Positions 24,528-33,934 are shown, counted from the stretch's first letter. The stretch: 64,000 bases of DNA from Roseibacillus persicicus (GCF_014651675.1 NZ_BMXI01000014.1:1-64000); one strand, 5' to 3'. Program-made: numbers and translations. The notes: generated by a model not told the origin, from the sequence alone.

Positions 24528-25646
24528 ATGTTCGCTATCCCGCTTGTCGGAAAGGGAGATCTTGGCCATCACTCTGTGGTGACTCGACTGTTACTTCTCT
24601 TGTTTGCCGCCACTTGTCTTCCGTTGTCAGGGCATGTTGTGGAGCAGCTCTATTCCGAGTTCAAGGAGTCGGAAGAAGGCTGGCGGCTGGAGGTCCAATT
24701 CGATGCCGGCTATGCGGATCCGGTGACCCGGGACGCACCTCTGGTGCCACAACCCACCCGCGAATGGCTGCTCGCCCAGTCCGAAGAGTCATGGGCGGAG
24801 ATGCGGCGCGAGGCCGAGATCTATCTGCGTGAGCTGCTGACGATTCGCGCCAATGGGCGGGACTTGGATTGGGAGGCCAGCTTTCCGGATTGGGAGGCTA
24901 GCCCTCCCGACTTTCCCGAACTCTTGAACGGAGGCGGATACTTTCGGGTGAATGTGGCGGGCGAAGAGCCGGGGCGTTTGGTCATTGGGGTCAGGGAGGG
25001 GAATTACCCCAAGCTCATCGTGGAGCGCGAGGGAACCTACCTGGTGGTGGACAAGGGAGAGCAGAAAGAGGTGCGCGAAGGAGGACGCTGGTGGGTTTGG
25101 TTGCGGGAGGGATATCGGCATGTCATCCCTCTTGGCTGGGATCACGTGCTCTTTGTTTTCGGGCTCTTCTTTTACCGGAGAAAATTGCTGGAGCTCTTCC
25201 ATCAGTCCCTAGCCTTCACCGTGGCTCATTCGGTGACTCTGGGGCTGGCGGCGGCGGGTCTGGTGATGTTGCCGGAAAGTTGGAGTGGTCCCCTGGAGGT
25301 CGCCATCGCGTTGAGTCTCGTTCTCGTGGGCTTGGAAAATCTTCGCAAGGAGCGTCGGCTGAAGCTGCGCCTCTTCCTCGTTTTTCTACTCGGGCTTTTG
25401 CACGGGCTTGGCTTCGCGGGAGCGTTGGCGAACTACGTCGATCGCGAGGCGCTTGTTCCTTCAGTGGCGGCCCTCAACATTGGGGTTGAGCTCGCGCAAA
25501 TCACCCTGCTTGGGCTGGCATGGTTGCTCACCATCAAATGGAGCGAGAAGCCTGCCTACGAAAAAGTCCGCGTATCGGGCAGTCTCTTGGTTGCGGCAGC
25601 GGGGGCTTATTGGGCCGTGACCCGCTTGATGGGGCTCTTTGCCTAG
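24528..25646 (+). CDS. HupE/UreJ-like membrane protein
   Basis: A 372-residue membrane protein related to HupE/UreJ, a family associated with nickel or cobalt permeation. After an N-terminal hydrophobic segment (LLLLLFAATCLPLSG) comes a periplasmic domain of about 190 residues. The C-terminal membrane domain has the family marks GWDHVLFVFGLFF, FTVAHSVTLGLAA, FLLGLLHGLGFAGAL and NIGVELAQITLLGLAWL, whose conserved His and Asp would face the metal. The start is uncertain: the ATG at 24528 gives a 16-residue lead, and a GTG at 24576 or 24579 would also work. Its stop overlaps the tonB stop on the other strand (CTAG at 25643-25646). Confidence 0.8.
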   Translation: MFAIPLVGKGDLGHHSVVTRLLLLLFAATCLPLSGHVVEQLYSEFKESEEGWRLEVQFDAGYADPVTRDAPLVPQPTREWLLAQSEESWAEMRREAEIYLRELLTIRANGRDLDWEASFPDWEASPPDFPELLNGGGYFRVNVAGEEPGRLVIGVREGNYPKLIVEREGTYLVVDKGEQKEVREGGRWWVWLREGYRHVIPLGWDHVLFVFGLFFYRRKLLELFHQSLAFTVAHSVTLGLAAAGLVMLPESWSGPLEVAIALSLVLVGLENLRKERRLKLRLFLVFLLGLLHGLGFAGALANYVDREALVPSVAALNIGVELAQITLLGLAWLLTIKWSEKPAYEKVRVSGSLLVAAAGAYWAVTRLMGLFA

Positions 25647-26650
25647 TTCAAGCGAAAGGTGACTGGAATGGTCAACTGGTAAGCGACAGATTGACCGAGG
25701 CCGTTCTTGGCGGGATTGAAGCGCCACTTTTTGACGGCTGCCAAGGCGGATGAATCGAGGGCGCTGTGACCGGAACTCGCGATCACTCGAGGGGAAGAGA
25801 CTTTCCCGTCGGAGGTGACGGTGGCGGCGATGCGGGTTGTGCCTTCCAGTCCAGCCTTGCGGGCGGAGTTGGGGTATCGCGGGGGAGTGCGCTTCGATAC
25901 CACGGGAGCGGCGGCGACTTTCTTCGCTAGAGAGGCCTTTCGCCGTTCTTCCGCTTGGATGGCGGCGAGCTCGGACTTCTTGCGGCGCTCGGCTTCGCGC
26001 TGGGCGGCGAGGGCTTTGCGTTGCTCGTTTCTAACAGCCTCTTCTGCGGCCCGTTTTTTGGCGAGAAGAGCTTCTTGCTCCTTGCGTTTTTGCTCGGCTT
26101 CCTTGCGTTTTTGCTCTGCCAGTTCACGGGCTTTGGCTTCGGCGAGCTCGCGGGCTTCGATTTCTGCGAGGCGGACCTCTTCTTCTTCCGCAAAGCGCTC
26201 AAAGGTCTCGATTGCCTCGCTGGCATCTTGCACGAGTTCGTGGGCAGGAAAGGTCACCGTTGAATCCGATAACGCCAGTATCGGAGGTGCAGCCGGCGGG
26301 CGGAATTGCGCGGGAGGTTGGGGTGCCGAGAGGCTGGCGTGGGCGTGGGGCACGACTTTGCGAGGTGTGGCCTCGGGAGCCGGCTGTTCTTCAGTCGGGC
26401 GAAATTCCAGCTCGCTGGACTGCACCCGAATCGGTTCCAGCTCAATCTTGAGAAGCTTGGGCAAGGCGACGTAGCCAAAGGCTGCGAGCCCGCCCGCGCA
26501 AACCAGACCCGAGATTCCAAACGATAGAATCACTTCCTTCACGGTGCGCCGTTCTCCCGGCTGTGGCCTGGGTGGGAGAGGCTTGGTCGAAGTCACGAAC
26601 TGGACAGGGGAACTCTTGGACGAGCTGGAATCCGAGGGAGAAGCGTTCAT
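25643..26650 (-). CDS. tonB: energy transducer TonB
   Basis: TonB couples the proton gradient across the inner membrane to outer-membrane receptors. Starting at the ATG at 26648-26650 (MNASPSDSSSSK) the protein has 335 residues; the frame runs upstream to 26758 without a better start. One transmembrane helix (ILSFGISGLVCAGGLAAFGY) is followed by a Pro-rich stretch and then about 90 residues of charged helix rich in Glu, Lys, Arg and Ala (AEQKRKEAEQKRKEQEALL), instead of the usual Pro-Lys spacer. The C-terminal TonB domain spans about 255-335 (PPRYPNSARKAGLEGT, VKKWRFNPAKNG). No exbB or exbD is present in the window. It lies downstream of the receptor locus. Confidence 0.9.
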   Translation of the reverse strand: MNASPSDSSSSKSSPVQFVTSTKPLPPRPQPGERRTVKEVILSFGISGLVCAGGLAAFGYVALPKLLKIELEPIRVQSSELEFRPTEEQPAPEATPRKVVPHAHASLSAPQPPAQFRPPAAPPILALSDSTVTFPAHELVQDASEAIETFERFAEEEEVRLAEIEARELAEAKARELAEQKRKEAEQKRKEQEALLAKKRAAEEAVRNEQRKALAAQREAERRKKSELAAIQAEERRKASLAKKVAAAPVVSKRTPPRYPNSARKAGLEGTTRIAATVTSDGKVSSPRVIASSGHSALDSSALAAVKKWRFNPAKNGLGQSVAYQLTIPVTFRLN

Positions 26651-26744
26651 AATTCGGCGGGAGCGGGGAGAAGTATAGAAATTGCGTGAAATCGAGCTAG
26701 CGCGGCTTTGCGGGTGACTAGCGGTCAGTTGCGATCCCGAGAGG

Positions 26745-26802
26745 CCCCTCTTTTTCAAGAGGGGTTAACCAGCTGCTGGAAGCCGTTCACCAGCAGCTGG
26801 TT
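26745..26802. repeat. two adjacent hairpins between tonB and a PEP-CTERM gene
   Basis: Hairpin one (26745-26764) is CCCCTCTT-TTTC-AAGAGGGG. Hairpin two (26767-26802) has perfect 13-bp arms, AACCAGCTGCTGG and CCAGCAGCTGGTT, with a 10-nt loop. They lie 28 bp beyond the stop of the PEP-CTERM gene at 26831. Neither is followed by a T tract, so they may be an attenuator, an mRNA 3' stabiliser or a tandem terminator of unusual form. Confidence 0.7.
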
Positions 26803-26830
26803 CTCACCATCCCTTGAAAAATTTCAGGAA

Positions 26831-27517
26831 CTAGCGAGCAGTGCGCCGCCTTCTCAGGAGTGCTGAGCCAGCGAAAAGAGTCAGCAAGGCTGTCGAGGGC
26901 TCGGGGATGACTGCCACGAAGTTGTCCGAGGAGTCGACCTGCAGTTCGTAGATCAAGCTGTGGGGGGCGGTTTCCCATTGAACCTGATAAGAGGTGATCG
27001 GATCGGTCACTCCGCTCAAGTCCCACTGGAAGACGAAGTTGTTGGTCGCGGTTGCAGGCCCGCCGAAGCTATAGGTGTAGTCGCCCGCATAGGTCGCGGA
27101 GAGATCCGCGGGGTAGAGGTCGGTCCCATTCACCAGTAATTGGGGAGTGGAGGCGAAGGAGCTGGCGCCCATATCGATTTGGAAAACGATAGTCGCGAGG
27201 TTGGCGACGGGGTTGCTGGATTCCACCACGAGGGAACCACTGTTGCCACCATCATAGAAGCTATTGGTGGCGAAGTATCCTCCGCCTGAGGTTTTGTTGA
27301 AAGTCGCGTCGCCGGTGGACCCTGCGACATTCGGGCTGACTGGGGCGGGCCAAGGCGAAGTTCCGGGATAGCTGCCGTAGCCAGTCAGTCGGCTGCCTAC
27401 CAGTTGGTCCCAACCATCAGTGCTGGTGTTCCCAGGGAAAGAAATGGTGAGGGCCGCGTGAGAGCTGAGCGCGCTCGTGACCAGGACAAAAGTGGATGTT
27501 AGGAATGTGTGTTTCAT
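26831..27517 (-). CDS. PEP-CTERM sorted exported protein
   Basis: A 228-residue exported protein with signal peptide MKHTFLTSTFVLVTSALSS (cleavage near SHA-AL). The C-terminus is IPEPSTALLTLFAGSALL followed by RRRRTAR, a clear PEP-CTERM tail. The body is Ser/Gly/Thr/Asn-rich beta sequence without recognisable catalytic residues (examples GGGYFATNSFYDGGNSGSLV, SYQVQWETAPHSLIYELQV). It lies 101 bp downstream of another secreted-protein gene on the same strand and upstream of tonB, so it may belong to the receptor locus, though the spacing allows an independent promoter. Function unknown. Confidence 0.83.
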   Translation of the reverse strand: MKHTFLTSTFVLVTSALSSHAALTISFPGNTSTDGWDQLVGSRLTGYGSYPGTSPWPAPVSPNVAGSTGDATFNKTSGGGYFATNSFYDGGNSGSLVVESSNPVANLATIVFQIDMGASSFASTPQLLVNGTDLYPADLSATYAGDYTYSFGGPATATNNFVFQWDLSGVTDPITSYQVQWETAPHSLIYELQVDSSDNFVAVIPEPSTALLTLFAGSALLRRRRTAR

Positions 27518-27618
27518 AGCGTGTTCTCTGTTTGAGATGGATTGAAAGTGAAGGGATTCGGTTTTAAGTTCTGTCGCTTGTTTGTTTCTTTGTGGCGACG
27601 ATTTGTCTTTCCAGGCGT

Positions 27619-28461
27619 TCAGTGGGCTAGACGGAAAAAAGTCGGCGAAGTGGTGCGAGGGAGGGTGACGAATTTATGGTCTCCCTGCTCCTCAACTGTG
27701 GCACTCACCTCTGTCCAGGAATCTGGCTCAGCGAGATTTTGCGTCGCTTGCAACTGAGCTGTTAGAGTGCTGGGCCACGAAATCTGAATTTCACTTTCCG
27801 TGAGAGAAAGCTCCGGGCTGGGAAGGGTTTCAGGTGCGGGAGATGGCGCCAGATCGAGAACGAAGGCATCGATGGAGTCGTGGGCATCGGCGTAACCAAT
27901 CAGCGAAAGATCCACCGTTGTCGCGGCACCGGGCAGAGTCCAAGTGAATGACGTGATCGCCAGAGTGCGCTCGAAAAGAGTGCCTGCATCGAGAGTGACG
28001 AAGCTCACCAGAGCCTCAGTGGGTTGGCTCGAGTTCAAGAGCACTGAATATCCGGTCAACCCTTGCGGAGCATCGTCGCCTTCCTCAAACGAAGAGTTGA
28101 GAACTTCGCTCACTTGCAGGGTGGCGGTTTGGAAGGGGACGTTTGCGGTAGCGGTGATTTGTATATTGGCAGCCGCAGAGAAGGTGTAGAGTCGGCGATC
28201 GTTTTCGTCCGTGTATTTGATTCCTCCGGGAAAAGCGAGAGGGGTGGTCTGCGAGAGAATGGGCTGCACCAGATTGGCGGAGGCGTCGGCGGGGCTGCTC
28301 CCGGTTGCATTGGTATCGCTCAAGCCCGCCAAGGAATCGAAGCTGGCAAATGCGGAGTTCTCTTCATTGCGCGTGTCGGGAATGGTGAAGAGTGAGAGGT
28401 CGGCCTGAGCTTTCAGCACAAGGGAGAGAGCGAGGAGGGTTTGAAATGCGGAGTGGGACAT
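27619..28461 (-). CDS. exported protein downstream of the TonB-dependent receptor
   Basis: A 280-residue exported protein. The ATG at 28459-28461 gives the signal peptide MSHSAFQTLLALSLVLKAQA; the frame extends 17 codons further upstream but without a signal. The body is a beta-rich domain, and the C-terminus (IQISWPSTLTAQLQATQNL, then SPTFFRLAH) is the same kind of 'FFRL' end module seen in the first gene and in the TSP3 protein. It starts 86 bp after the receptor stop and is plausibly in the same operon. It could be a surface partner of the receptor, but no ligand-binding motif is visible. Confidence 0.65.
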   Translation of the reverse strand: MSHSAFQTLLALSLVLKAQADLSLFTIPDTRNEENSAFASFDSLAGLSDTNATGSSPADASANLVQPILSQTTPLAFPGGIKYTDENDRRLYTFSAAANIQITATANVPFQTATLQVSEVLNSSFEEGDDAPQGLTGYSVLLNSSQPTEALVSFVTLDAGTLFERTLAITSFTWTLPGAATTVDLSLIGYADAHDSIDAFVLDLAPSPAPETLPSPELSLTESEIQISWPSTLTAQLQATQNLAEPDSWTEVSATVEEQGDHKFVTLPRTTSPTFFRLAH

Positions 28462-28546
28462 GGGAGGGATGGTTGCGATTTTGCGCCTCGGGCGCTGGTG
28501 CTGACTTGTCAATCCGTGATGCTCCGTTGACTCCGGCTAGCTTGAG

Positions 28547-30775
28547 CTAGAAGGTCAGATCGCAGGAAAGGAAGAAGGCTCGACCGGGCTGGGTGTAAAA
28601 GGAATTGGGCAGTCCATTGCCGCCGTGGCCGGTTCCTCTTCGAGCGGTGGCCCAGAGAATGTAGTCTTCGTCGAGCAGATTGCTGATTCCGCCCCGCAGC
28701 CGGACATTTTCGGAGAGCTGGTAATAGGCTGTGAGATCCAAGGTGAGCCAAGAGTCAGCGGGGAGGAAGTCCGTGCCATCGCTGTCGTCAATATCGGAGA
28801 GATCCTTGGCTGCGGCGTAGGTGGCGGTGAGAGTCGAGCCCCACTTCTCGCTGGGCGAGTGATAGGCCAGATAGGCGACCGATTTCCATGGCTCGATGGA
28901 GTTGAGCGGTTCATCCCCCGAGCCTTCGCCATCGTCCGCATGGCCTTCCGACCAAGAGAGCGAGCCTCCCAAGGTGAGCCCTTCCAGGAAGGAAAACTGT
29001 TCTCCAAGGTTCCAGTCAGCGGAAAATTCCAGCCCGTAGATTTCCACCTCGCCCCGATTGACGGTCGTCAGTTCGTCCGGTGTCCCGGGAGGGTTGTCGA
29101 CGAGGAGAACTCCATTTTCCAAAAAGTCCGAGTAGAGATTGTAGTAGCCGGTCAGCTTCGAAGTGAAGAGGTCCGAAGAGTAGTCGAGGCCTAGCTCAAA
29201 GGAGTTCGAACGTTCTTCCGAAAGGTCGGGATTGGGGACGGTGATAAAGGTGTCGGTGTGGGAGAATACTCCGTTCAGTTCCTCCGCCGAGGGATTGCGC
29301 GTTCCTTGCGCCCACGAGCCAAAGATACTGACTTGGTCCGTCACGTGATAGGCGAGAGAGAGGCTGGGGGAGATGGAGAAGTTGTCGAAGGCAGCCGCTT
29401 CCTGACCATTGCTTTGCGAGAGGAAAGCGGCGGTGTTTTCGGGGTCCACCGAGTAGTGGTCAAGGCGGACCGCAGGCGTGATTTCGAACTCGTCGTTGGC
29501 TCCGAAGCGGACTCTGTCTTTCACGAAGAGTCCTCCGCGAATGACCTCGGAGGGTGCCATCCCAATCAGGTCCTGGACGATGGAACCACCGCTAGCAAAG
29601 CGCTGGGTGCGAAAGAAGCTGGACTCTACCTGAGAGTATGAACCCTCGATCCCGTAGCTCAGTTGATGGCGCGAGATTTCCTTTGTCGCCTGCAGTTGCA
29701 AACCGGAGATTTCGGTTTGGTAGTCGATGTCGTTCAGGTAGTCGCGAAGCCCTCCAAAGGCCACGCCTTGCTGCACGTTATCGGTCGCCGCTTCAGCTCG
29801 TTGCCAATAGGCGGTAGTCTTCAAGCTGTCGTAAAGAGGGGTTGGCGCGGTGAGCTCCAGATCAAGTGAAAAGCGGAGGCGTTCGCGGAGGTCGTCCGAG
29901 GTCAACAAGGTGTTGAAGATGCCTTGCCCCGTGTCGCCTTCCGCACTGTTGACATCGACAAAGGAACGGGCGCGGTAGAAGTCGGCGGTGGCGGTGAGTA
30001 GTGCGTCGTCAGAGGGACGCCAGTTCAAGGTTGCGACCACCGCGTCGGACTCGAAGTCCGCGGGATTGGCCGGGTAGAAGGAATTGTTGCGTCTCTCTTG
30101 ACCCTGTCGGTAGGAGTAAAGAACAGACGCGGCGGCCCTTCCGTTGCCCAGTGCCGTTGCCAGGCGATTGTGGATGGACTCGTTGACAGAAGAGAATGTG
30201 ACCGAGTCGCGGAGGGCGAAGCCTTCCAACTCGGGACCCAAAAGGGTGAGGGCGGATTCGGTTCGCCCTGAGACAGCGCCACCAAGAGCATCGGAGCTCG
30301 TGGACGAGTTGGCTGCTGATTTGTGAAGTTCGACTTCGGCGAAGGTTGCGGGGTCGAAGTAGATTCGACCGGGGCCTCCCGAGCCTTCAAAAGACTTCGA
30401 GATGAAGTCGTCCGGCTGGCGGATGCCATCCACGTCGATGGAGATCCGGTTGCCCTCCAGGCCGCGAATATTGATGCCGGAGTCTCCACCCGACAGGTAG
30501 GGAATCAAACCGTCGGTGCCGGCAAAGTCGAAGGGAATGGAGACTCCTGGTTCATACTTGAAGGCATCAGTTAAATTAGTTGCACCGGTTTGTAAGATGT
30601 CCTCCGCCGAGATGGTGGAGGAGGAACTGGCGCGGGATATACTTTCTTCCTCTTCCAGGCGGGAGGCGACCACCACGGTCTCCTCAAGCTCAAGTTCCTG
30701 CGCGAAAAGCGAAGGAGTGAGGCTGAGAGAGGCCGTGGTGGCAACGACCAGCCTGACAGAGGGGCGAAAGAACAT
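28547..30775 (-). CDS. TonB-dependent outer-membrane receptor, heme/hemoglobin-type
   Basis: A 742-residue outer-membrane receptor that would import a large ligand using TonB energy. Signal peptide cleavage is near LFA-QE. A TonB box (ETVVVAS) is at about 32-38. The plug domain includes NLTDAFKYEPGVSIP and SGINIRGLEGNRISIDVDGI. The plug ends in a segment typical of the hemoglobin/transferrin/heme receptor group (VELHKSAANSSTSSDALGGA). The 22-strand barrel is indicated by alternating aromatic strands and the terminal Phe (LSCDLTF). A FRAP/NPDL pair typical of heme receptors is only partly visible: VPNPDLSEERSNSFELGLDY is present. Neighbouring DUF6607 and HemS-like genes support a heme or iron role. 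Confidence 0.9.
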   Translation of the reverse strand: MFFRPSVRLVVATTASLSLTPSLFAQELELEETVVVASRLEEEESISRASSSSTISAEDILQTGATNLTDAFKYEPGVSIPFDFAGTDGLIPYLSGGDSGINIRGLEGNRISIDVDGIRQPDDFISKSFEGSGGPGRIYFDPATFAEVELHKSAANSSTSSDALGGAVSGRTESALTLLGPELEGFALRDSVTFSSVNESIHNRLATALGNGRAAASVLYSYRQGQERRNNSFYPANPADFESDAVVATLNWRPSDDALLTATADFYRARSFVDVNSAEGDTGQGIFNTLLTSDDLRERLRFSLDLELTAPTPLYDSLKTTAYWQRAEAATDNVQQGVAFGGLRDYLNDIDYQTEISGLQLQATKEISRHQLSYGIEGSYSQVESSFFRTQRFASGGSIVQDLIGMAPSEVIRGGLFVKDRVRFGANDEFEITPAVRLDHYSVDPENTAAFLSQSNGQEAAAFDNFSISPSLSLAYHVTDQVSIFGSWAQGTRNPSAEELNGVFSHTDTFITVPNPDLSEERSNSFELGLDYSSDLFTSKLTGYYNLYSDFLENGVLLVDNPPGTPDELTTVNRGEVEIYGLEFSADWNLGEQFSFLEGLTLGGSLSWSEGHADDGEGSGDEPLNSIEPWKSVAYLAYHSPSEKWGSTLTATYAAAKDLSDIDDSDGTDFLPADSWLTLDLTAYYQLSENVRLRGGISNLLDEDYILWATARRGTGHGGNGLPNSFYTQPGRAFFLSCDLTF

Positions 30776-30809
30776 TTTGAAAAACTTGGCTGGGTAGAAG
30801 AGTCCAGGC

Positions 30810-31766
30810 TTAGCGCAAGTGCTGGGTCAGGATGGCGTCGATTTCCGGGCGGGAGATGGACGAGTCCTTCTTGAAGTTTTCCGCAAGTTCGCTCATGCGG
30901 GCCATGAGAGGCTTTTTGTCGAGCTTGCTGATGTAGTGGACGGGGCCTTCGGATTTGGCGATGACTTCAGTCCAAGCGTGACGAACATTTTTCCAGAACG
31001 GGTGGGTGGCGGCCCAGTATTCGTTGGCCTTCTTGACACCGAGTTCCTGGTCACTTCCTTCTTCCGGAACGATGCGCTTGTAGGTATTGGCTCCGCTTTC
31101 CAGACAGAGAAAGTGGTTCTGTCCTTCGCTACGCACTTGCTTGCGATTGTCCTGCAGATGGACCCAGCCTTCCGGGGTGATGAGGTGGCGGTTGATGACC
31201 TGGAGTCGATCGTAGTCGCTTCGCTTGGTATATTCCCGACGGGGAAGCGGACGAGTGGAGAGGTCGGAGGTCCACTCGGAAAAGTCGCCGCTGTGTTCCC
31301 ACTTTCCTGCTGCCTTGTAGCGGGGACTGTCATCGACCTGAGTGACCAGTTGGGTCCAGGTTCCCTTGACTTCTTCCTCGCTCAACTCGACCGGTAACCA
31401 AGTGCGCTTGCCTTCGTAGGTGAGCACCTCGGTGTCCTCATAGTTCCAGATCTGCGCCCAGTGCTTGATGATGCGGGGGCCGTCCATGTCTTCCACAATG
31501 AGCAGATGCTGCAGGGTGATGCTGGAGCCGAGATCCTCGGCAACTTTCACCAGCTCAAGGGCATTCGCCTTGTAGGGATCCTTGAGCTCATAGTCGGGTT
31601 GCAGAGGGACGGTCTCTTCGAACTTGAATTCGACTTCGAAGGTTCCAGCCATGGAGAGGATTGCGGCCCGGTCGCGGTCGAAATCCGCGTGGGGGGCTGC
31701 TGAACAGACCGCGGTCATGGCGACCGCGAAGAGGGTTGACCATTTCGTGAATTGATTGCGTTTCAT
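30810..31766 (-). CDS. DUF6607 family exported protein
   Basis: A 318-residue exported protein with signal peptide MKRNQFTKWSTLFAVAMTAV, cleaved near CSAA. The family marks are TLQHLLIVEDMDGPRIIKHW, QIWNYED, TWTQLVTQVDDSPRYKAAG, PLPRREYTKRSDYDRL and GWVHLQDNRKQV. From memory the DUF6607 family is found beside TonB-dependent receptors in heme or iron loci; its biochemical role is not established. It ends 34 bp before the receptor gene, so the two are almost certainly co-transcribed. The many conserved Arg, Trp and Tyr residues suggest a ligand-binding periplasmic protein, but this is inference. Confidence 0.82.
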   Translation of the reverse strand: MKRNQFTKWSTLFAVAMTAVCSAAPHADFDRDRAAILSMAGTFEVEFKFEETVPLQPDYELKDPYKANALELVKVAEDLGSSITLQHLLIVEDMDGPRIIKHWAQIWNYEDTEVLTYEGKRTWLPVELSEEEVKGTWTQLVTQVDDSPRYKAAGKWEHSGDFSEWTSDLSTRPLPRREYTKRSDYDRLQVINRHLITPEGWVHLQDNRKQVRSEGQNHFLCLESGANTYKRIVPEEGSDQELGVKKANEYWAATHPFWKNVRHAWTEVIAKSEGPVHYISKLDKKPLMARMSELAENFKKDSSISRPEIDAILTQHLR

Positions 31767-31853
31767 CAGGCGGAACTTAGGCAGAGGATCCTGCTCGGGT
31801 CTGGCGGTTCATTGTGGAGCCTTAGCGTTGAATTGCCTTTTGCCAGTCGGGTT

Positions 31854-32693
31854 TTAGGGCGTGTGTTCTTGATAGCGACCGTCGGGTGTTCCCAGCAGCG
31901 TTTGCCACCTGTTGGTAAAGGCGTGGGCGGGAGCAGAGAGAGAGGCGATGACCCCGCCATGGGTGTTGATGCAGGAAACCTTGCGAACCGCCTGACCGTC
32001 AAAGTTTTCACGGCTGATGAAGATTCCATGGATTGCTCCCGCATCGATGAGAAAGACGTCATTCTCTCCCTCAGAGATGATTCTTCCCTCGCGAGTCTCG
32101 ACGCGGCGGGGGTGATGGGAGGCTACCAGTTGGGTGCCGCTTGCGGGGATGGTGAGCGTGGTGTGCTCTCCGGTTTTGCAGAGTGCTGTTAGAATGTTGA
32201 AGAAAGGGTTTTGTCCGGCGAGTTTCCGTCGAGTCACGGACGCATCCTGGCAACAGGGGCAGAGGGTGAGGGGCTTGACTTTCCGGTGAGCTTGGAGGGA
32301 CTCATTCTCGGGCTTCATCTCCCAACCAAACAAGTTGGTGAGGAGGGCGAGGGAATCGGGCCCGACATTCACGAAAGAAAGGCGGCTTCCACGGTTACTG
32401 AAATCGAACTCGATGGCGCCTGAGCCACTATCGTCGGTTTCCACCACGTAGACCTTGTCAATCTGTGCCTGTTGGAATGTCAGGCTGGGTTGGGTGCTGA
32501 GAAAATAGCCGCCTTCATCCAAGTAGCTGGCTCCGAGGTCGATGTTGCCACGGTAGCTGACGGCGGCACTATGCAGTTCGAATTCGCTCTGCCCCAGATA
32601 GTTCATCACCTCCCAGAAGGAGGGGTGAGGTGCTTCCAGTTCGTGGAGCCAGCGCCATTGGTCACAGACGGGAGGTTTGGTTTTCGGCCTCAT
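31854..32693 (-). CDS. putative HemS/HutX-like heme-handling protein
   Basis: A 279-residue protein without a signal peptide. Two segments look like repeats of the HemS/HutX heme-binding fold: SGAIEFDFSNRGSRLSFVNV in the first half and AIHGIFISRENFDGQAVRKV with INTHGGVIASL in the second. HemS/ChuS proteins are cytoplasmic heme carriers or degraders with two such repeats, but at about 340 residues they are longer, and I cannot place a conserved heme-ligand His with confidence. A CPCC motif (LTLCPCCQDAS) lies near the middle and is unusual for that family. Its ATG overlaps the stop of a 50-codon upstream ORF, and it precedes the DUF6607 gene by 87 bp. Confidence 0.5.
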   Translation of the reverse strand: MRPKTKPPVCDQWRWLHELEAPHPSFWEVMNYLGQSEFELHSAAVSYRGNIDLGASYLDEGGYFLSTQPSLTFQQAQIDKVYVVETDDSGSGAIEFDFSNRGSRLSFVNVGPDSLALLTNLFGWEMKPENESLQAHRKVKPLTLCPCCQDASVTRRKLAGQNPFFNILTALCKTGEHTTLTIPASGTQLVASHHPRRVETREGRIISEGENDVFLIDAGAIHGIFISRENFDGQAVRKVSCINTHGGVIASLSAPAHAFTNRWQTLLGTPDGRYQEHTP

Positions 32694-32842
32694 TTTGTTT
32701 TCTTGTTTGAGTTTTTCGAGTTGTTGGGGGATTTGGGAGCGGCTGGTTTCGGTTGAGCGCCTGTCTGCTTTTTCTTCCGAACAGGGCGGTAGATATAGGC
32801 TTGTTTCCCGCTGATTCGGCTACTGGTATTCGAGTAAGTCAT
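32690..32842 (-). CDS. 50-residue basic protein translationally coupled to the HemS-like gene
   Basis: A short frame begins MTYSNTSSRISGKQAYIYRP at the ATG at 32840-32842 and ends in a Lys/Asn/Pro-rich tail (PKSPNNSKNSNKKTK). Its TGA overlaps the ATG of the next gene by four bases (ATGA), the arrangement used by other coupled genes in this window. Its place at the head of a heme-uptake-like operon recalls HemP, but it lacks the LRxTRxGKLILTK-type ending of HemP, so no name is given. It may be a genuine small protein or a leader peptide controlling the operon. Confidence 0.5.
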   Translation of the reverse strand: MTYSNTSSRISGKQAYIYRPVRKKKQTGAQPKPAAPKSPNNSKNSNKKTK

Positions 32843-32959
32843 GGCGTCCACTATGGCGGCATTTTTCACTCTCTGCTGGTGGTCCTTTACCGGGAATTGG
32901 CGATGGAGTGCCAGCGAGCAGGGTTCAGTGTTGGCGCAGCTTCTCGCGAAGAGACGGGT

Positions 32960-33682
32960 TTAGCTCAGGCGTTTCAGAAAGGCCGAGGGCGTCATCCCTT
33001 GTTCCTCTGAGAAGGCCTTGGTGAAGTGCGAGAGCGAATTGTAGCCAACCTCGAGGGCTGCTTCGGTGACGTTGTGGTGGGCTGATGCCATGAGCTCTGC
33101 TGCTCGCTCAATGCGAAAGGCGCGGAGGTGGAGTGAGAGGGTTTTGCCGGTATCCTGTTTCACCAGACGACTGAGGTAGTGTGGAGCGCATCCGACATCC
33201 TGGGCGAGTTCGTTGAGGTCGAGCGGTTCCTGGAGGCGGGCTTGCAAAAGCTCCAGCGCCTGTCTCGTGTAGCGATGCGCCCGTTGTTTCAATTGGGTGC
33301 AGAAGAGTGGCTCACCGGCTGGTTTGTGGAAGAGGTGAAGCGAGAGGATCTCGAGGATCTTGGCCTGGAACCAAGCGTGCCTTGCGGCCTCGGCCACGGG
33401 AGGCGAGACGAGGTCTTCGTAAAATTGAGCTTCCCGGCTGCTCCATCGGCGAAGAATTCCCAGATTTTTTTCCAAGAGGGGGATGGGGCTGCGGAAGAGG
33501 CGTTCGAGAGGCTCGGACTCGAGGCGAAGGAGAAGAAAGTCGTGTCCGACTTGGGACTCGAAGCGGGTAGCGGTGCGAAGACCGGGAGACTGTCCCATTT
33601 GGAAGATGGCAAGAGACTGGGGCAGGAGGGTGATGCGAGTGCCAGGGGCTATGATCAGCCCCTCTCCCTTGAGATTGAGCAC
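32960..33682 (-). CDS. AraC-family transcriptional regulator, start uncertain
   Basis: A DNA-binding regulator whose C-terminal AraC/XylS domain (about residues 140-240) has both helix-turn-helix units: LDLNELAQDVGCAPHYLSRL and NVTEAALEVGYNSLSHFTKA followed by GMTPSAFLKRL. The N-terminal sensor part resembles PchR-type iron or siderophore regulators only loosely. The listed start is a GTG at 33680-33682, but about 50 codons upstream in the same frame still read as protein (HDEKKPFAASLLWFQEL, then SLHFVLNLKGEG) as far back as a TAG at 33836-33838, with no ATG, GTG or TTG among them. The true start may be non-standard or the gene may be frameshifted. It precedes the heme-like operon on the same strand and is its likely regulator. 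Confidence 0.8.
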   Translation of the reverse strand: MLNLKGEGLIIAPGTRITLLPQSLAIFQMGQSPGLRTATRFESQVGHDFLLLRLESEPLERLFRSPIPLLEKNLGILRRWSSREAQFYEDLVSPPVAEAARHAWFQAKILEILSLHLFHKPAGEPLFCTQLKQRAHRYTRQALELLQARLQEPLDLNELAQDVGCAPHYLSRLVKQDTGKTLSLHLRAFRIERAAELMASAHHNVTEAALEVGYNSLSHFTKAFSEEQGMTPSAFLKRLS

Positions 33683-33934
33683 AAAGTGAAGGGAGGACGC
33701 ATGGAGCTCGTCCTGCCAAGTCGCGCTTTGGCTGGAGAGTTCTTGAAACCACAGCAGCGAGGCTGCGAATGGCTTCTTTTCGTCATGAAGAAGGCGAGCT
33801 TTGATAGTAGACGGGTCGCAGGGCTGACGCCGAGTCTACGGATTGTGGATGAGAAGTCGAGCCTTTACTGAGACTGAGTCTCAGTAGCTTTATCTTCTGC
33901 TGGTTAGGGAGAATGGATTGTTCGGGGGGGAGGG

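Follow-up and report, generated by a model that had tools for sequence, protein, structure and literature searches.

The window analysed here, a 64,000-nucleotide stretch of Roseibacillus persicicus DNA (NZ_BMXI01000014.1:1-64000), carries on its minus strand a gene cluster (25643-33838) that we read, with a probability of about 0.86, as a RhuH-type heme acquisition system. Heme uptake of this kind has so far been described only in Flavobacteriales; very probably it also exists in Verrucomicrobiota, together with lineage-specific partners. What we establish directly is homology, fold, heme-residue conservation, gene linkage and the presence of a Fur-like box. A preliminary description of this DNA had listed eight genes on one strand, and gene calls and family models bear this out: all eight lie there in the expected order (Table 1), and Pfam or NCBIfam models identify the AraC regulator, DUF6607, the heme-type receptor, the PEP-CTERM tail and TonB, while the HemS-like, FFRL-ended and 50-codon proteins match none of these models. 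Three lines of evidence, each independent of the others, support its suggestion of heme or iron acquisition: a DUF6607 protein of the RhuH family, a heme-type receptor and a HemS fold. The host genome (G000) is a draft of 5.28 Mb, 97.5% complete, and Roseibacillus ishigakijimensis (G001) served for comparison within the genus.

The DUF6607 protein is a homologue of RhuH, the haemophore of Riemerella anatipestifer. It matches PF20311 with an E-value of 6.6e-72 (242.6 bits), and its structural model, built from 51 homologues with a mean predicted local distance difference test score (pLDDT) of 92.5, finds PDB 8xjc, 'a novel haemophore of Riemerella anatipestifer' (PMC11967795, 2025), both by Foldseek (E 4.1e-28, 36% identity) and with a Z score of 34.2 across 274 residues (38% identity). 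Profile comparison with the same structure gives E 1.8e-100, and the folds ranked behind it, bilin lyases and the heme protein nitrobindin, reach Z scores of about 9 to 10. RhuH has a dissociation constant for heme of 3.4e-11 M, with His96 essential, and the heme propionates are predicted to be held by Arg143, Tyr144, Arg170, Arg183 and Gln198 (PMC11967795). All 51 aligned homologues have His96, Arg143, Tyr144 and Arg170, and 43 keep the equivalent of Gln198; in the window protein these five residues are His102, Arg149, Tyr150, Arg177 and Gln205, His102 being the presumed heme ligand. Arg183, Asp154 and Glu160 are not kept (Val190, Gly160 and Thr166 in the window protein), and these positions, which are not essential to the family, vary across it; Asp154 and Glu160 are dimer residues in RhuH, where the Glu160Ala variant retains heme use (PMC11967795). 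A signal peptide is visible in the sequence, and RhuH itself is secreted in outer membrane vesicles (PMC11967795). The window protein would probably leave the cell and bind heme as well.

Homologues of RhuH were reported mainly in Weeksellaceae and Flavobacteriaceae (PMC11967795). The 80 loci collected here extend the range of DUF6607 to Verrucomicrobiota, Planctomycetota, Hydrogenedentota, Myxococcota and Gammaproteobacteria, and the heme ligand is invariant across the sequences from all of these groups and from Bacteroidota. A literature search on DUF6607, on PEP-CTERM proteins with heme uptake and on verrucomicrobial HemS returned no useful paper. Beside the short clade considered below there is a second clade of longer proteins (frames of about 360-450 amino acids; for example L026, L027, L029, L031, L035, L038, L041, L042, L045 and L046) that keeps the heme residues and was never found near an AraC or receptor gene in its 14 loci.

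The receptor scores 348 bits against the heme/hemoglobin model TIGR01786, whose cut-off is 323.75, and displays TRNPSAEEL (FRAP-like), FSHTDT and NPDL in succession, with a conserved His between the FRAP-like and NPDL boxes. This residue, His506, is present in 17 of 17 verrucomicrobial receptors and replaced by Asn in six gammaproteobacterial ones, while His370 is invariant in all 23 aligned partner receptors. The TonB protein of the cluster is presumably its energiser. It could be argued that the substrate is another tetrapyrrole or a metal chelate, with protoporphyrin, heme breakdown products and siderophores as examples, and that the RhuH and HemS folds have been reused for it, given that receptor families switch ligand easily, that several relatives' receptors score low against the window receptor family and that alignments of the HemS-fold protein, marked by a CPCC motif, show no conserved His in the axial-ligand stretch. 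We consider this very improbable, as DUF6607 retains the key heme residues, the window receptor lies above the heme/hemoglobin cut-off and the affinity of RhuH for protoporphyrin IX is lower than that for heme by a factor of about a million (PMC11967795).

The label 'HemS/HutX-like', given earlier to the gene product preceding DUF6607, stands as far as the predicted fold is concerned but not as a match to any sequence family: PF05171 gives no hit to the protein at E<=1 and none in G000. The model (mean pLDDT 82.6, 11 homologues) matches HemS, ChuS and PhuS by Foldseek over nearly its whole length (E 1.2e-13), with a Z score of 18.6 for PhuS (root-mean-square deviation 3.0, 227 residues), which corresponds to the full two-repeat fold; single-repeat ChuX/HutX proteins rank after these. 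Sequence identity to the three proteins is 7-12%. A profile built from 33 HemS-like relatives reaches E 5e-8 against a set of verrucomicrobial HemS proteins, and this set matches solved HemS at E 2.8e-17. When the HemS-like profiles were compared with solved structures by sequence alone, no HemS came up, so the connection rests on the model and this profile chain. HemS-like genes occur in 41 of 260 family genomes, and short-clade DUF6607 is present in 33 of these versus 21 of the 219 others (Fisher exact test, p 3e-20, kinship ignored); in 14 genomes the two gene starts are <=6.2 kb apart.

On the strength of its modelled fold the protein is a probable heme carrier or degrader. Alternatively, it might be a heme or iron sensor that feeds AraC, with CPCC (residues 145-148, between the repeats, invariant or nearly so in the family) as the sensing site. 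Cys-Pro motifs are known heme-regulatory sites, and in Roseibacillus the gene sits between AraC and the haemophore gene and is translationally coupled to a small basic open reading frame (ORF). In several relatives, however, the HemS-like gene or another HemS gene is adjoined by a flavodoxin gene, an arrangement in keeping with reductive chemistry on heme, and we think a sensor unlikely. In one genome (G003; L081, 4109-8032) the HemS-like gene lies away from the haemophore locus; its neighbours there are another HemS gene, this one PF05171-like, together with a flavodoxin-like frame and a gene resembling NADH dehydrogenase.

Regulation by iron is suggested by the palindrome ACTGAGACTcAGTCTCAGT, a perfect 9-1-9 repeat 61 bases upstream of the presumed AraC start. 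It is the only exact copy in the genome and matches the classical Fur consensus at 15 of 19 positions. Similar boxes occupy the same place before AraC in most relatives, and across 23 AraC upstream regions the mean number of matches to this consensus, chosen beforehand, is 13.2/19 versus 10.6 in shuffled sequences (200 shuffle sets, highest 11.1). In R. anatipestifer, rhuH and the receptor gene rhuR have a common Fur-box promoter (PMC11967795), and the Roseibacillus locus may likewise be under Fur and iron control. Elsewhere in the genome the near-identical box ATTGAGACTCAGTCTCAAA precedes a porin gene followed by FMN (flavin mononucleotide)-binding, PepSY and ApbE genes (L205, G000:C6, 2794-6301; names read off the sequence by inspection, not by family search). 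Its location fits iron control, and this is likely a second iron-regulated operon.

AraC relatives beside DUF6607 are 52-72% identical. The start of the window AraC is uncertain: the open frame extends from 33835 and encodes a conserved N-terminus, with no ATG, GTG or TTG there (33803-33835), an ATC at 33803-33805 lies close to the relatives' start, and the first canonical start is GTG 33682, so either a rare start is used or a truncated protein is made from GTG 33682. The 50-codon ORF is, judged by its conservation, real. R. ishigakijimensis has a 50-codon counterpart in the corresponding position: the two agree in 15 of their first 22 residues, and in both species the ORF overlaps the HemS-like gene by four bases, ATGA. 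As a candidate HemP (PF10636) this ORF was rejected, there being no match in the locus.

How far the arrangement extends was assessed across the family. Of 23 short-clade DUF6607 genes, 20 have AraC <=3.5 kb away and 15 have a receptor nearby; since the HemS-like gene was the route to some of these loci, counts of HemS-like genes among them are not independent. In Bacteroidota, too, DUF6607 is flanked by AraC and the receptor, and in Gammaproteobacteria and Myxococcota by the receptor. The common core is AraC and the haemophore; receptor, HemS-like and surface-protein genes are variable and their order is loose. Conservation nevertheless goes beyond receptor and DUF6607, so that the condition under which the preliminary description would have given up its reading, gene order confined to that pair, does not apply: AraC, HemS-like and PEP-CTERM genes recur as well; its notion of secreted partners as a lineage-specific variant gains ground from the linkage of one PEP-CTERM family to the haemophore gene.

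The PEP-CTERM protein scores 21.4 bits against TIGR02595 (cut-off 16) and 15.7 against Pfam PF07589, below the cut-off of 20.7; its C-terminus consists of a PEP motif, a transmembrane stretch and a basic tail, and the host genome has two exosortase genes. The family to which it belongs (A5) has an invariant QWDL motif and recurs beside the haemophore gene. Among the 260 genomes, 22 of its 24 best members lie <=5 kb from a short-clade DUF6607 gene, and of these relatives 21 are on the same strand as DUF6607 and 19 within 600 bases. In G011, and likewise in L119 from an Akkermansiaceae genome, secreted FFRL-ended proteins come after the receptor. By hhalign, relatives in L119, L039 and L129 match the PEP-CTERM family (E 8.4e-16) and the window FFRL protein (E 1.1e-7). 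Since direct profile comparison of the PEP-CTERM family with the window FFRL protein gave no significant match, the two are connected solely via this chain of intermediates, along which the FFRL-ended protein appears as a distant relative of the family. Both may capture ligand outside the cell. It is also conceivable, if somewhat unlikely, that the haemophore-receptor core is real but that the PEP-CTERM protein, the FFRL protein and TonB simply adjoin it and have some other, unrelated role at the surface: two genes separate the window PEP gene from DUF6607, and secreted PEP-CTERM proteins are abundant (123 first-look candidates in G000). The close, same-strand linkage of the family to haemophore genes speaks against this. 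In several relatives another PEP-CTERM protein is encoded between AraC and the HemS-like gene (L121, 2745-3494), and CBM96-like secreted proteins stand behind the receptor, in the same slot, in L033 and L036.

Several observations weigh against the heme reading. A search for a FecCD heme permease in the draft genome, where absence is weak evidence, gave weak matches only, likely to other ATP-binding cassette (ABC) permeases; nothing above cut-off was found for HemP in 20 genomes. R. ishigakijimensis has AraC, the small ORF, HemS-like, DUF6607 and PEP-CTERM genes with no adjacent receptor, and its best receptor homologue sits on another contig. Finally, the 11- and 33-sequence alignments contain no conserved His in the HemS-like stretch matching the HemS axial-ligand helix (the first of the second repeat), a place that another residue could take. 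Ferrochelatase (PF00762) was not found in G000 either, though for a draft this is weak evidence; if the enzyme is missing, heme uptake would be useful to the host, which may be auxotrophic for heme or may rely on a different heme route.

Under a RhuH-type system, we propose that iron shortage, acting at the Fur-like box, would switch on AraC and, probably, the genes that follow. The DUF6607 haemophore would exit the cell and bind heme via His102 inside its beta-barrel, perhaps with the PEP-CTERM and FFRL proteins assisting in heme capture at the surface. The TonB-energised receptor would then move heme across the outer membrane and, after presumed passage of the inner membrane, the cytoplasmic HemS-fold protein would receive it for transfer or degradation. 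A more specific version, in which heme or hemoproteins are retained or presented at the surface by beta-rich PEP-CTERM proteins anchored through exosortase, and in which the HemS-fold protein receives heme by its CPCC cysteines in place of the usual His, perhaps with flavodoxin, is speculative, and we offer it with considerable reserve.

Table 1. Features of the heme acquisition locus in the window
Feature	Position	Strand	Basis
Fur-box-like palindrome	33867..33885	.	perfect palindrome ACTGAGACTcAGTCTCAGT
AraC-family regulator	32960..~33806	-	HTH_18 E 3.8e-20
50-codon ORF, basic tail	32690..32842	-	conserved in R. ishigakijimensis
HemS-fold protein, predicted cytoplasmic	31854..32693	-	model fold + profile link to verrucomicrobial HemS
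DUF6607 (RhuH-type haemophore)	30810..31766	-	PF20311 + 8xjc match
Heme-type TonB-dependent receptor	28547..30775	-	TIGR01786
Secreted beta-rich protein ending FFRL	27619..28461	-	hhalign to relatives
Secreted PEP-CTERM protein	26831..27517	-	TIGR02595 + family alignment
TonB protein	25643..26650	-	TonB_C E 1.6e-23; TIGR01352 75 bits

DUF6607, a widespread family with no named function in Pfam, thereby gains a testable role far beyond Flavobacteriales. Annotation overlooks two parts of such loci, the HemS-fold protein invisible to Pfam and the surface-protein family tied to the haemophore. Free-living bacteria with no detected ferrochelatase would be natural heme scavengers.

Among known systems the locus resembles RhuH-RhuR-RhuA of R. 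anatipestifer: the two haemophores belong to one family and share their heme residues, and each is encoded beside a TonB-dependent heme receptor and a Fur-type box. The Roseibacillus locus differs in its same-strand cluster with AraC, a HemS-fold protein, PEP-CTERM and FFRL proteins and TonB, and in belonging to the phylum Verrucomicrobiota, whereas the homologues reported before are mainly from Flavobacteriales (PMC11967795). With HmuR/HemR-type receptors (TIGR01786) it shares a full-length match above cut-off and the FRAP and NPxL boxes with His between, but the FRAP box here reads RNP[ST]AEE and the receptor is paired with a RhuH-type, not an HmuY- or HasA-type, haemophore. HemS, ChuS and PhuS (PF05171) share with the HemS-like protein the complete two-repeat fold and a gene position within a heme-uptake locus; the Roseibacillus protein, in contrast, lies below Pfam detection (7-12% identity), has an invariant CPCC between the repeats and shows no conserved His in alignments of the axial-ligand stretch. 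The general logic, in which a heme receptor is paired with a beta-rich protein at the surface, recalls HmuY-HmuR of Porphyromonas, although no sequence relation is demonstrated and surface attachment in Roseibacillus would be via exosortase.

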